A DNA stretch of 61,937 nt, taken from the NCBI RefSeq assembly GCF_009932555.1, contig NZ_BLJO01000010.1, forward strand, positions 1 through 61,937. The letters are read 5' to 3'. Every line of letters begins with the position of its first letter. The first letter of the stretch is position 1. A program made the position numbers and the translations under genes. Below, piece after piece: positions 4,523-57,741 of this stretch. This DNA comes from Steroidobacter agaridevorans (GTDB taxonomy: Bacteria > Pseudomonadota > Gammaproteobacteria > Steroidobacterales > Steroidobacteraceae). The notes below the pieces were generated by a model. That model worked only from the letters and a program-made list of their open reading frames with translations, was not told where the DNA came from and ran no database searches.

Positions 4523-6700
4523 TCATTGTAGAACGGGACCTTCGGACTGGGTCGCGGCCAGCAATTGTTCCACCAGGCGTGGCCAGTCCACACGACGCGA
4601 GCTGCCGATGACATCGATGCGCGGCATGCCCTGCCCTTTCACCAGGTAGTAATTGCCATTGGCCGCCGGCGCGGCGCCGTCCATGACACAGACTTCGTTA
4701 TGCAACCGACATGAAATGCCCAGCCGATCGTAGTTGAAGTCGTCGAAGAAGCGCAGGAAGCCGCTCGACAGGGCCGCGGTCACGCCAGCACCGCCGCCGC
4801 CAATACTGCCGATGTTCTCGACCGCGCGCTGGCTGATGCGATGACGCGAGCGATCGTCGGGCGGCGTATAGAGCCGCGCGTCGAAGGCGACCGGCGTCCA
4901 GTTGAACAACTCCAGACCATTGATGGCGCCCGACAGCCGACCGGTGATGCGTCCGAAGGAGAACGCACTGGTCATCGGCTCGAGATCCAGGTTGTTGAGC
5001 GCGATGCTCGAGTAGAAGCGCGGCCACTGACCGAAGGGCTGCTCCAGCCGCAAATCGCTGATCGTGACTTCGCCGTTGAACACCTGCGCGCGCAGCGTCG
5101 TGCCGAGCGTGACGATGCCTTCACGCATGCGCAGTTTCGAAATGGCGCCGCCGATCCGCCCACCGAACTCGGGCCAGCCGAATGCCTTGCACAGCTTCTG
5201 CACGCTGACCGGCTGCAACGTCGCATCGACCAGGAACGCGACCCCAGGCAAGCCGGCATTGCGGACACGGAATGTTTCGAGATCGATCGAGCCGTCGAGC
5301 AAAGGAATTCGCGCCGGTTGCGTGAGACGAAACTGCCGGCCCTGGGTCGAGAAGTTGAGTTCGCTTGCACCCAGATCCAGACCGAGCAACGCCCCGCCCT
5401 GCCATTTCAATTGCGATGGCGCGACCTGCATCGTGCGGCTGGGGGGCGCATCGTCTTCGTCAGAGTCGTCGCCGGTCGCATCTGCAAGCCAGTGCCAGTC
5501 GCCGCTCAAAGTCGATAGATTCAGATTGCCGGCGCCGTCATCGAAGGTGACATCGTTGAAGCGCAGATCGATCCGCCGCGGCTCGCCGTCGGCCATCGAC
5601 AACTTGCCGCCGATGCTGCCGGCGGTCTGCAGGGACTTGAAGTTCGTATCGATCAGCAGCGGCTGCAAGTAGCTCTCATACGCGCCAGGGAATGTCAGCG
5701 AGCTCAGCTCGACGTCGACGTCGCGCAGCGGCTGCTCCAGATCCAGCTGCAATCGCCCGCGTCCGGACACTTGCGCGACGTCCGCATGATCGAGCGTGAA
5801 ACGATCCAACGTCAGCGACTTGCCATCGGTCAGCTTGCCCTGCGCTCTTAGCGACATCGCATGCGCCGACAGATCGACGAAGATGGGCTGTGCGAACGCC
5901 TGCCCCTGCGACGATTTGACCGCGACATCGAACGTCCACTGCTGCGCCGAGCCGCGCACGCTCGCATCTACATGCAACGACAACTTGTCGCTGGCCAGGC
6001 TGCCTTCCTCATTGTTCGCGGTCAGTTCCAGCAGCGCGCCGGTGACTTTCGCTTCACCGAGATTTGTTTGCTTGCCGCGCGCAACGATGTCGAGATCGGC
6101 CAGCCCGGTGGCGGTCAGTTCAGGCACCGGAGCTTTGAGATCGGCGGCCAGCTTCATCAAGCGATCGATGGGCACTCGCTGCAGACGGACTTTCGCATTC
6201 CAGCCTGCATCGCGGAGCGTTCCCTGCAAGGCGATGCGTCCGTCGCCGACGCGCAAGCCTTGCAGCGCTACGTCGAGCGAGCCATCGGCGCGTCCATAGC
6301 TCAACCTCGCATCGAGCGATTGCTTGCCCAGAGCCGGCCAGTCCGCGAGCACACGCGCCTTGGCGCAAGCAATGACATCGCCGCTCACATCCAGCGACGG
6401 ACATTCGATACGAACATCGGTGAGTGTTTGCGAGAGCGCGGGCACGTTCAGCTTGCCCACTCGTGCGCGCACCAGCGCATTCTTCTCAGGCAATCCCAGG
6501 TCGACGGCCACATCGCTCGCGCTCCAGCCGTCGCCGTCGACGCGCTCGATATGTAACGTCACGTCGTCCACAGCGCGCACGGCTGTTGCGAGCACGACTC
6601 CACCGAGCACCGCGGCTATCGCAGCGAGTTTGCGAGCACGAATCCGTGCCGGTCGCTGCGATTGTTGTAAGCCGGAGACGCTCGTCATCGACGGAATCAT
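4523..6700 (-). CDS. YdbH-like AsmA-family inter-membrane protein
   Basis: A protein of about 725 residues has one N-terminal membrane anchor (AAIAAVLGGVVLATAV) followed by a long beta-rich repetitive region typical of AsmA/YdbH/TamB-like lipid-transfer bridges. The C-terminal part has YdbH-like motifs: IGGAISKLRMREGIVT, LEPMTSAFSFGRITGRLSGAINGLELFNWTPVAFDARLYTPP and NYDRLGISCRLHNEVCVMDG. The downstream YdbL-like gene supports the assignment. The start is unsure: ATG 6700 is chosen, but ATG 6688 or TTG 6724 are possible and none has a clear ribosome site. It diverges from the GH3 gene, and the LacI operator at 6759 lies in the shared control region. Confidence 0.75.
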   Translation of the reverse strand: MIPSMTSVSGLQQSQRPARIRARKLAAIAAVLGGVVLATAVRAVDDVTLHIERVDGDGWSASDVAVDLGLPEKNALVRARVGKLNVPALSQTLTDVRIECPSLDVSGDVIACAKARVLADWPALGKQSLDARLSYGRADGSLDVALQGLRVGDGRIALQGTLRDAGWNAKVRLQRVPIDRLMKLAADLKAPVPELTATGLADLDIVARGKQTNLGEAKVTGALLELTANNEEGSLASDKLSLHVDASVRGSAQQWTFDVAVKSSQGQAFAQPIFVDLSAHAMSLRAQGKLTDGKSLTLDRFTLDHADVAQVSGRGRLQLDLEQPLRDVDVELSSLTFPGAYESYLQPLLIDTNFKSLQTAGSIGGKLSMADGEPRRIDLRFNDVTFDDGAGNLNLSTLSGDWHWLADATGDDSDEDDAPPSRTMQVAPSQLKWQGGALLGLDLGASELNFSTQGRQFRLTQPARIPLLDGSIDLETFRVRNAGLPGVAFLVDATLQPVSVQKLCKAFGWPEFGGRIGGAISKLRMREGIVTLGTTLRAQVFNGEVTISDLRLEQPFGQWPRFYSSIALNNLDLEPMTSAFSFGRITGRLSGAINGLELFNWTPVAFDARLYTPPDDRSRHRISQRAVENIGSIGGGGAGVTAALSSGFLRFFDDFNYDRLGISCRLHNEVCVMDGAAPAANGNYYLVKGQGMPRIDVIGSSRRVDWPRLVEQLLAATQSEGPVLQ

Positions 6701-21167: not shown

Positions 21168-21566
21168 TTATTTCTCGCCGCGCTTCTCTTCGAAGTGCAC
21201 GACCGGCGTGCCGCTGGTGACAGCCATATCGCCTTCGATGATGGCGCCCTTGGCGACCGCGATGGAGCGCGCCTTCAGCGAGCCCTTGATGCGAGCCGTC
21301 GCGCGCAGCTCCAGCTTCTCGGCAACCGAGACCGAGCCGACGACCTCGCCCGCGATGACCGCATTGCCAGCGCGAAGCTCGCCTTCCCAGCGACTGCCGT
21401 CGGACAACGTCAGCGCCCCGTGCACATCGCCGTCGCCGATCACAGTGCCGCCGACCACCAGGTCGCCGGCGCATTCGAGGTCACCCGTGAACCGTGAGCC
21501 CGAGCCGACGAACGTCGGGCTGCTGGACACACGATCGGCAAGACGGCGGCGGGGGGTATCGGCCAT
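21168..21566 (-). CDS. Bactofilin (polymer-forming cytoskeletal protein)
   Basis: A 132-residue bactofilin. A short basic N-terminal tail (MADTPRRRLADRVSSSPTFVGSGS) precedes a right-handed beta-helix of six-residue-spaced Gly/Val repeats (FTGDLECAGDLVVGGTVIGDGDV). A charged C-terminal tail follows (FEEKRGEK). Such proteins self-assemble into filaments at the inner membrane and position cell-wall or polar machinery. ATG 21566 is preferred because GGAG lies at ideal spacing; an ATG two codons earlier is also possible. It stands alone; the M23 peptidase often paired with bactofilins is absent here. Confidence 0.9.
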   Translation of the reverse strand: MADTPRRRLADRVSSSPTFVGSGSRFTGDLECAGDLVVGGTVIGDGDVHGALTLSDGSRWEGELRAGNAVIAGEVVGSVSVAEKLELRATARIKGSLKARSIAVAKGAIIEGDMAVTSGTPVVHFEEKRGEK

Positions 21567-21653
21567 GAACATCTCCAAACAAGCGAGCGCGGATTATCGA
21601 CCGTTGGTCGCGCAGTAGTCATGCAGGGTGCAGTCGGTGAATGGCGTCAGTCC

Positions 21654-21667
21654 GTGACCCAAGTCAC
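21654..21667. promoter_or_regulatory. Inverted repeat, possible enhancer-protein site 1
   Basis: GTGAC-CCAA-GTCAC. It lies about 130 bp upstream of the sigma-54 site at 21787, and its centre is about 30 bp (three helical turns) from that of the next palindrome. Confidence 0.4.
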
Positions 21668-21682
21668 CGAAGCGGTCCGAAG

Positions 21683-21699
21683 CTGACACTTCGTGTCAG
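21683..21699. promoter_or_regulatory. Palindrome, possible enhancer-protein site 2
   Basis: CTGACAC-TTC-GTGTCAG is a perfect 7-bp inverted repeat about 95 bp upstream of the sigma-54 -24 element, the usual place for an AAA+ activator to bind. Confidence 0.55.
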
Positions 21700-21786
21700 C
21701 CCGAACGCCTGCCCGACCGTCATACCAGCCTTTATAAGTGACTGATTCCGCGCACCGCCTGTCCACCCTGGAATTTTTACAGGCAC

Positions 21787-21802
21787 TGGCACAGCGGTTG
21801 CA
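21787..21802 (+). promoter_or_regulatory. Sigma-54 (RpoN) promoter, -24/-12
   Basis: TGGCACAGCGGTTGCA agrees with TGGCACG-N4-TTGCW at all defined positions but one (G7 is A). Predicted transcription starts about 21812. Upstream palindromes fit enhancer sites; downstream is a short RNA ending in a terminator. Confidence 0.75.
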
Positions 21803-21811
21803 CTGAGCAGC

Positions 21812-21910
21812 TGGCATTTATGCGCTGAACCTCCAAGCAAGCTCGGGAGCGAGCCCTTGAGTTCGAATTCACGCCGCCACGCGTTCTTCCCCGCTGGCGG
21901 CGCTTTTTTT
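21812..21910 (+). ncRNA. Candidate sigma-54-dependent small RNA (about 100 nt)
   Basis: The 412-bp gap between the bactofilin and M16 genes has no credible ORF. From the sigma-54 promoter to the terminator about 99 nt would be made. The RNA has an ACCTCC segment (anti-Shine-Dalgarno-like) near 21829-21834, a GCTCG-GGAG-CGAGC hairpin (21841-21854) and the terminator stem. Size and layout resemble other sigma-54-driven regulatory RNAs (Qrr, GlmY), but I see no sequence match to those families. Alternatively the unit is an attenuated leader of the M16 operon starting 69 bp later. Confidence 0.6.
21872..21910 (+). terminator. Rho-independent terminator
   Basis: CGCCGCCA (21872-21879) pairs with TGGCGGCG (21895-21902), followed by CTTTTTTT. 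It faces plus-strand transcripts, yet no plus-strand gene precedes it, which supports the RNA call. Confidence 0.88.
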
Positions 21911-21978
21911 GCCCATGTCACGCGGCTCCCTACCCATCCCGACACCGCTATCATGCCGGCTCCTCTGCAGGAGCTTTC

Positions 21979-23328
21979 ATGATCCGATCACTGTTGTTGG
22001 GGCTGGCGCTGGTCGCGCCGGCAGCCTTTGCGCAGGTGCCGGGCGCGAACGAAGTCCGGACCGCGACCCTGGCCAATGGCATGCAGATCATCGTCTGGCC
22101 GGACCACGACATCCCCAATGTCGCGCTCTACAACTGGGTGCACGTCGGCAGCCGCAACGAAGCGCCCGGCATCACCGGCCTGGCGCATTTCTTCGAGCAC
22201 ATGATGTTCAACGGCACGAGCACGCGCGCGCCCGGCGAGTTCGACCAGATACTCGAAGCCAACGGCGCGCGTAACAACGCGTTCACCAGCGACGACGTGA
22301 CCGTCTATCAGGACTGGTTCCCGCGCTCGGCGCTGGAAACCGTATTCCAGCTGGAAGCGGATCGTCTGCAGAATCTCTCGTTCGATCCCAAGGTGGTCGA
22401 GAGCGAGCGCAATGTGGTGCATTCCGAGCGGCGCTTGCGAGTCGACGACAGCCATCAAGGCCGGCTGCAGGAGCAAGTGCAGGCGACCGCGTTCGTCGCG
22501 CATCCCTACGGCATCCCCACCATCGGCTGGCCCTCGGACATCCTGTCGTGGACCATCGACGATCTGAAAAAATTCTTCTCCACCTACTACGCGCCGAATA
22601 ACTGCACGCTGGTGCTGGTCGGCGACGTCGAGCCGGACCAGGCAATCGCACTGGCCCGCAAATATTTCGAGCCCATTCCCAAACAGGAGCCGCCGCGACC
22701 GGTGAAGACCGAGGAGCCGGAACAGCTCGGCGAGCGACGCGTCGCGGTGAATGCCGATGCGCAGACACCGCTCGTCCAGGTCGCGTATCACGGCATTTCG
22801 GGCGCAGATCCGCGACGGCCCGCTTTGGATTTGCTCACGCGCGTACTGACTGATGGCGATGCGTCGCGTCTGCATCGCACGCTGGTGGAGGAGCAGAAGC
22901 TGGCGATCTCGGCAGACAGTTATTTCACCGCAGGCTTCGATCCCGGCCTGGTGTGGTTCTTCCTGTCGCTGCCGGCCGAAGGCGATGCCAGGCAGGCCGA
23001 GGCAGAGTTCACTCGACAGGTCGAGCGAGTGATCGAGGAAGGCGTCACCAAGGACGAGCTGGCTCGCGCTCGCAGCCAGGCACTCGCAGATTTCTGGCGC
23101 GGCCTCGCCACCATCGATGGCAAAGCGCAGGCGCTCGGCAGCTTCGAAGTTCTTCAAGGCGGTCACAAGAAGCTGTTCGATGAGCCGCGCGCTTATGAAG
23201 CAGTCACCCAGCAGGACGTTCAGAAGCTCGCCGCAGAGTTGCTGCGCTCGACCAACCGCACGGTGGGCGTATTGAAATCGCCGCCGCCCCCGGACGAAGC
23301 GCAGACGCAGTCGGGAGGTGCGAAATGA
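21979..23328 (+). CDS. M16 zinc metallopeptidase, catalytic subunit
   Basis: A 449-residue periplasmic protease with a cleaved signal peptide (LLLGLALVAPAAFAQ). The inverted zinc motif HFFEH is at residues 70-74, with a downstream glutamate in VVESERNVVHSERR as third ligand. Two homologous M16 domains follow. CAGGAGC lies before ATG 21979. It pairs with the next gene, which lacks the zinc motif; such active/inactive pairs form heterodimeric peptidases that degrade peptides in the periplasm. Confidence 0.92.
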   Translation: MIRSLLLGLALVAPAAFAQVPGANEVRTATLANGMQIIVWPDHDIPNVALYNWVHVGSRNEAPGITGLAHFFEHMMFNGTSTRAPGEFDQILEANGARNNAFTSDDVTVYQDWFPRSALETVFQLEADRLQNLSFDPKVVESERNVVHSERRLRVDDSHQGRLQEQVQATAFVAHPYGIPTIGWPSDILSWTIDDLKKFFSTYYAPNNCTLVLVGDVEPDQAIALARKYFEPIPKQEPPRPVKTEEPEQLGERRVAVNADAQTPLVQVAYHGISGADPRRPALDLLTRVLTDGDASRLHRTLVEEQKLAISADSYFTAGFDPGLVWFFLSLPAEGDARQAEAEFTRQVERVIEEGVTKDELARARSQALADFWRGLATIDGKAQALGSFEVLQGGHKKLFDEPRAYEAVTQQDVQKLAAELLRSTNRTVGVLKSPPPPDEAQTQSGGAK

Positions 23329-57500: not shown

Positions 57501-57654
57501 CTGATAACCCTTGTTACTTCTGCCGCGCGCTTACGCGCACGACGTGAATTTCCAAGGGCGACGCGGTCGGTATGAGCGACCAGACAAATCATCGGTGTAC
57601 TCGCGTACACATAGAACATCCGTGCCTCGCAGGCTCGGATTGCTCTCGCTAATT

Positions 57655-57741
57655 TGGCAGCCCCGCTGTCATCGGGCGTGAGCCCTTTTAGACCGGTTGC
57701 TTTGCGTCCCCGACTTTCGACGGGTTTGCCCTTGACGGTAG
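57655..57741 (-). promoter_or_regulatory. c-di-GMP-I (GEMM-I) riboswitch
   Basis: On the minus strand the leader reads AGGGCAAACC...GAAA...GGGGACGCAAAGC...CCGGTCTAAAA...AGCGGGGCTGCC. These are the conserved blocks of the GEMM-I aptamer, including the GAAA tetraloop and the ACGCAAAGC core, in the right order and spacing. It ends 155 bp before the lipoprotein ATG 57500, leaving room for an expression platform. The sequence cannot decide between c-di-GMP and the rarer cGAMP variants with certainty. Confidence 0.9.

Follow-up and report, generated by a model that had tools for sequence, protein, structure and literature searches.

In Steroidobacter agaridevorans, does the interval that separates a bactofilin gene, read leftward, from an M16 peptidase gene, read rightward, hold a genuine sigma-54-dependent small RNA (sRNA) gene and, if so, which regulator would switch it on? 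The window, by which we mean the whole 61,937-nucleotide stretch of DNA that was analysed, is the first part of a 326-kb contig in a genome of 8.0 Mb. Named relatives of the neighbouring gene came from Peristeroidobacter agariperforans, P. soli, Steroidobacter gossypii and two metagenome assemblies. A bactofilin-like gene adjoins the sRNA unit in other genera too, and in two relatives (G001, G022) the M16 gene lies downstream as it does in the window. The features of the locus are collected in Table 1.

Table 1. Features of the bactofilin–M16 interval, in window coordinates.
Feature	Position	Strand	Basis or remark
Bactofilin gene, divergent neighbour	21168–21578	−	Pfam PF04519, E = 3.3e-21
Upstream half-site cluster GTC-N7-GAC-N4-GTC, including palindrome 1	21646–21667	+	read from sequence
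Main enhancer element GTC-N6-TGAC-N7-GTCA, including palindrome 2	21675–21699 (element 21675–21698)	+	putative PilR site
IHF-like site TAAGTGACTGATT	21735–21747	+	read from sequence; one mismatch to consensus
Sigma-54 −24/−12 promoter CTGGCACAGCGGTTGCA	21786–21802	+	12 of 13 consensus positions; kept in alignment
Predicted small RNA, ~98 nt	21813–21910	+	match to model R1; fold z −2.5
First stem-loop, outer helix GAAC/GUUC	21826–21865	+	single fold and consensus fold
Terminator, loop UUCUUCCC at 21884–21891, T7 at 21904–21910	21872–21910	+	fold
M16 peptidase gene, downstream neighbour	21979–23328	+	Pfam PF00675, PF05193

When sites were scored against the sigma-54 −24/−12 consensus, the promoter CTGGCACAGCGGTTGCA had the top score within the window and was the sole place scoring 12. 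With up to one mismatch allowed, the −24/−12 pattern was found three times in the window against 5.6 expected, the site at 21786–21802 being the only exact one; chance could by itself account for the promoter match. The palindrome by itself is similarly weak and not beyond chance: the pattern TGACANTNNNYGTCA had eight matches in the whole genome versus three for the reversed control, and only the match at the sRNA locus had a −24/−12 site nearby. The reality of the unit was settled by the conservation of palindrome and promoter in combination, as described below.

A first-pass annotation, made from the letters of the window, had described a −24/−12 site with one mismatch, two palindromes three helical turns apart that would serve as enhancer sites, and a 99-nt RNA closed by a terminator. 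The promoter stood as described. The palindromes GTGAC-CCAA-GTCAC (21654–21667) and CTGACAC-TTC-GTGTCAG (21683–21699) were likewise recovered, with centres 30.5 bp apart, and the RNA came to about 98 nt, with a predicted start 12 bp beyond the −12 C and a terminator stem occupying 21872–21902 ahead of the T7 tract. As enhancer sites the two palindromes fared differently. Palindrome 2 forms the right part of a conserved three-half-site element, GTC-N6-TGAC-N7-GTCA, whereas palindrome 1, in an alignment of ten loci, was retained by five only, namely the window genome and the four relatives closest to it. The annotation had also counted a second unit of this kind (‘small RNA 1’) in the window; because the window contains neither a second promoter with a score of 12 nor a second three-half-site element, we concluded that the unit has no further copy at ‘small RNA 1’. 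The layout of the interval is that of a sigma-54-dependent sRNA gene: a GG-N10-GC promoter lies directly 5′ of the RNA, the enhancer element lies about 100 bp or more upstream (21675–21698), and the short RNA ends, as judged by sequence and fold only, in an intrinsic terminator. The IHF-like site (IHF consensus YAANNNNTTGATW) is placed between enhancer element and promoter.

The terminator at 21872–21910 was absent from the list produced by a simple terminator scan of the window. Folded singly, the RNAs tested gave z values of −2.2 to −7.3 relative to shuffles. The ACCTCC tract, which the first-pass annotation had offered as a seed for target pairing, is present at 21829–21834; as a seed it did not hold, since relatives show ACCGCC, ACCTCA or ACCTCG and only CUC is unpaired in the fold. 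The motif UCUUCCCC at the terminator loop, which was invariant in eight aligned RNAs, is the better candidate seed. We also rejected a CsrA sponge acting through the GGA loop at 21846–21849, a loop that is absent from relatives. The number of C-rich loops varied, with one in the window RNA, two in other genera and three in G005. A search of the RNA against Rfam (4227 models) returned no family at its gathering score, and nothing convincing emerged when seven loci were searched with relaxed settings. The relative from G123 weakly matched ar14 (RF02344) with 25.4 bits (E = 0.37), far below the gathering score of 58.8, and is not a member. Elsewhere in the window, a c-di-GMP-I-GGC riboswitch was seen at 57652–57739 on the minus strand (70.9 bits versus a gathering score of 59).

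We examined how far the unit is conserved. A DNA search matched the 331-bp region in 11 of 150 genomes of the bacterial family; one match, in G035, was a 30-base piece at the palindrome end and was left out. The remaining ten loci, nine from the genus and one (G005) from another, shared the order palindrome, IHF-like site, promoter, RNA, terminator. Eight RNAs of the genus (alignment A1) folded into a consensus of two hairpins, with 3 of its 20 pairs changed on both sides, and the 5′ part and loop of the RNA were conserved within the genus. The covariance model built from A1, R1, found matches in 24 of the 150 family genomes (11 of 25 genera), including the window genome. Nineteen of these had element and promoter directly upstream (the G011 match, L103, has both), and three (G016, G037, G060) lay behind a small-protein open reading frame (ORF) that has them. 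The match in G031 (L105) has both C-rich hairpins and is cut by the contig end, beyond which its upstream part falls; that in G007 (L106) looks false. R1 missed a divergent version in G003 (L053, ~5069–5300), in which an M16-like gene follows the element, the promoter and a terminator whose loop reads CUUCCCC.

A second model, R2, was built from eight loci of other genera only, with the window genome left out. It found the window RNA (21859–21911, E = 1.2e-4) as its single match in the window genome. In the R2 alignment 97.7% of cells were paired, 3 of 22 pairs had changed on both sides, and 11 of 500 shuffles scored as high; covariation support is thus modest. Across 369 genomes of the class, R2 matched ten, the window genome among them. 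Element and promoter accompanied only one of the other nine matches (G273), and the remaining eight resemble ordinary terminators.

The combination of palindrome and promoter was assessed across the family with the pattern TGAC-N7-GTCA, 41–71 bases, TGGCA-N6-TTGC, the control being the same pattern read backwards. It occurred at 59 places in 55 of 150 genomes, representing 16 of 25 genera, and the backwards control occurred in 0 of 150. The window genome is outside the 55 because its element–promoter spacing is longer; it was recovered once a longer gap was allowed. Four genomes with a longer gap (G000, G115, G106, G129) were found by a longer-gap search, and G074, with a still longer gap, is in neither set. 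Downstream analyses covered 30 of the 59 places, which were not hand-picked. The third half-site was present at 25 of these 30 loci, and an IHF-like sequence (relaxed pattern) at 24. No more than 420 nt from the predicted start, 26 of the 30 had a hairpin with UUCCCC at its loop, compared with 2.2 in shuffles and 0 of 30 on the opposite strand; we adopted this criterion once a count of hairpins with any CCCC loop had proved unspecific (25 of 30 versus 12.3 expected). Four loci lacked the UUCCCC hairpin: L228 encodes the small protein, the C-rich loops of L230 and L246 are spelled differently, and L244, where the third half-site is missing as well, may be a chance match. These counts indicate that related versions of the RNA gene recur in many members of the bacterial family. 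We concluded that the interval has the appearance of a genuine gene whose product is a short regulatory RNA.

Which activator would serve this promoter? The first-pass annotation had suggested looking for the palindrome at other RpoN promoters. Across the whole 8.0-Mb genome the full element had three matches, compared with none for the control: one at the sRNA locus, one upstream of pilA, and one inside a coding sequence that reads as xseB-like. Thus, only two promoters in the genome, those of the sRNA locus and pilA, carry the full element. The pilA gene comes after genes for a 6TM_PilS kinase and an NtrC-type regulator, in the operon pilS-pilR-pilA-pilB-pilC-pilD. One report describes GTCT elements as hallmarks of PilR sites (PMC6058289). 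Because the element occurs here and before pilA, which itself follows pilS-pilR, PilR, the activator of the main pilus protein pilin, most likely activates the sRNA gene too. When loci were lined up, GTC-N7-GAC-N7-GTC was found in all 19 sRNA loci, in 3 of 5 promoters of the small protein and in 4 of the 7 main pilA promoters, and TGAC-N7-GTCA in 19 of 19, 5 of 5 and 5 of 7, respectively. Many of the lined-up loci had been chosen by the palindrome; for such loci, therefore, only the third half-site is independent. Three pilin-like matches (L080, L081, L082) had neither promoter nor palindrome. The PrsR/PEP-CTERM regulator was rejected as activator: its upstream motif, as given in PMC1569441, ends in TTTACA, a misfit to the element.

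NtrC-type regulators are numerous in such genomes, and another of them, with sites resembling those at pilA, could activate the same sRNA gene. In its favour, two of the seven main pilA promoters lack an exact palindrome; they are among three that lack the full element, which counts against PilR control. Against another regulator stands the restriction of the full element to the sRNA locus and the pilA promoter adjoining pilR, and we consider a different NtrC-type activator unlikely.

Some relatives carry a short ORF between promoter and hairpin. At the locus beside bactofilin, an 82- or 93-amino-acid protein lies between promoter and C-rich terminator in G060 (contig C41) and G037. The same order, with a protein of 80–100 amino acids, occurs at another or an unplaced locus in G016, G017 and G158, and in G085, G044, G003 and G060 (contig C95) palindrome and promoter are present in a separate copy ahead of the small protein. 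The protein, of about 80–100 amino acids with a conserved ...DP...GYEM... motif, was seen behind palindrome and sigma-54 promoter at eight loci (L048–L052, L118, L119, L063). The one member searched had no Pfam match, and the two members searched had no NCBIfam match. A one-sequence search found it in 7 of 30 relatives and did not find it in the window genome. At four loci of genus g14 (L233, L234, L235, L238), a different short ORF precedes the C-rich hairpin behind the same promoter. These arrangements would fit an ancestral unit that coded for the small protein, the window RNA being a functionless left-over leader and terminator. Against this, the RNA has a 5′ part and a loop that are conserved within the genus, and most of the loci examined have the C-rich hairpin, with or without a preceding ORF; we regard the remnant explanation as distinctly improbable. 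Least probable is that the RNA is simply a leader or attenuator of the M16 gene with a terminator read through in some conditions, as the first-pass annotation had allowed: the M16 gene starts only 68 bp after the terminator and is the next gene in several relatives, but the terminator is strong and conserved, and because the next gene is convergent (of glycogen-debranching type) in G004, G145 and G026, which nevertheless keep element, promoter and RNA, a plain M16 leader does not account for the RNA.

The best-supported reading of the locus, given its conservation, the element shared with pilA and the genomes with convergent neighbours, is that of a sigma-54 unit which drives a short RNA ending in a terminator. 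We hold it probable that this is a sigma-54-dependent sRNA gene under PilS-PilR control, whose C-rich loop would most likely pair with G-rich stretches of mRNAs. In the mechanism we propose, phosphorylated PilR (PilR-P) would occupy the GTC/GAC half-site arrays at 21646–21698, IHF would bend the DNA near 21741, and PilR would activate sigma-54 polymerase at 21786–21802 when PilS-PilR is active. The RNA of about 98 nt would terminate at the hairpin with the UUCUUCCC loop and, if PilR activates its promoter, would be made together with pilin. Pairing of the C-rich loop, most likely with G-rich stretches near ribosome-binding sites, could then adjust protein output while pili are made. A scan of 14 genus genomes for CGGGGAAGA at 1–11 bases before an ATG gave 93 places. 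We inspected 60 target regions, which included five of the eight in G135 and all except one of those in G129, and none from G028, G141, G003, G123 or G060; G096 had no place. The 60 matches included 20 that open an ORF of at least 60 amino acids, and no target gene recurred among these 60 of the 93 places.

More broadly, pilin might share its PilS-PilR control with RNAs that have C-rich loops and form a widespread group, present in this bacterial family and in some relatives. Such RNAs would regulate translation in connection with pili, and a short ORF could be gained or lost between promoter and RNA hairpins, making sRNA, dual-function RNA and mRNA alternative states of a single locus. We give this extension an even chance of being right. 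The papers found present PilR as a regulator of pilin and other protein genes; a conserved sRNA under the same element would, if true, add a post-transcriptional arm to PilS-PilR that is directly testable. Because both states sit behind one promoter in related genera, the interconversion of a small-ORF mRNA and a stand-alone sRNA could be studied here as well.

Several known systems resemble the predicted RNA in part. Qrr, CrcZ and GlmY are likewise sigma-54-dependent sRNAs switched on by an enhancer-binding protein; their activators, LuxO, CbrB and GlrR, are other than PilR. No PilR-controlled small RNA was described in the literature found, which lay largely outside subscription journals. 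Among titles and the opening parts of abstracts on Steroidobacter small RNAs and on PilR sRNAs or the PilR regulon, none described the predicted RNA, nor did any among the matches listed for sigma-54-dependent and C-rich-loop sRNAs. A regulatory parallel is the pilA promoter of the PilR regulon (PMC6058289), which also combines the half-site element with a sigma-54 promoter; in the window genome pilR adjoins pilA. The sRNA locus differs in its predicted noncoding product and in its element–promoter spacing. A parallel in the RNA itself is sX13 of Xanthomonas, whose C-rich loops repress mRNAs with G-rich motifs and affect several type IV pilus genes (PMC3771888). By description, both RNAs are short, with C-rich loop(s) and a terminator. 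sX13 lies downstream of polA, is described as constitutive and has three stem-loops with C-rich loops (PMC3771888), whereas the predicted RNA lies between bactofilin and M16 peptidase genes, is preceded by a sigma-54 promoter and carries just one C-rich loop in the window genome.
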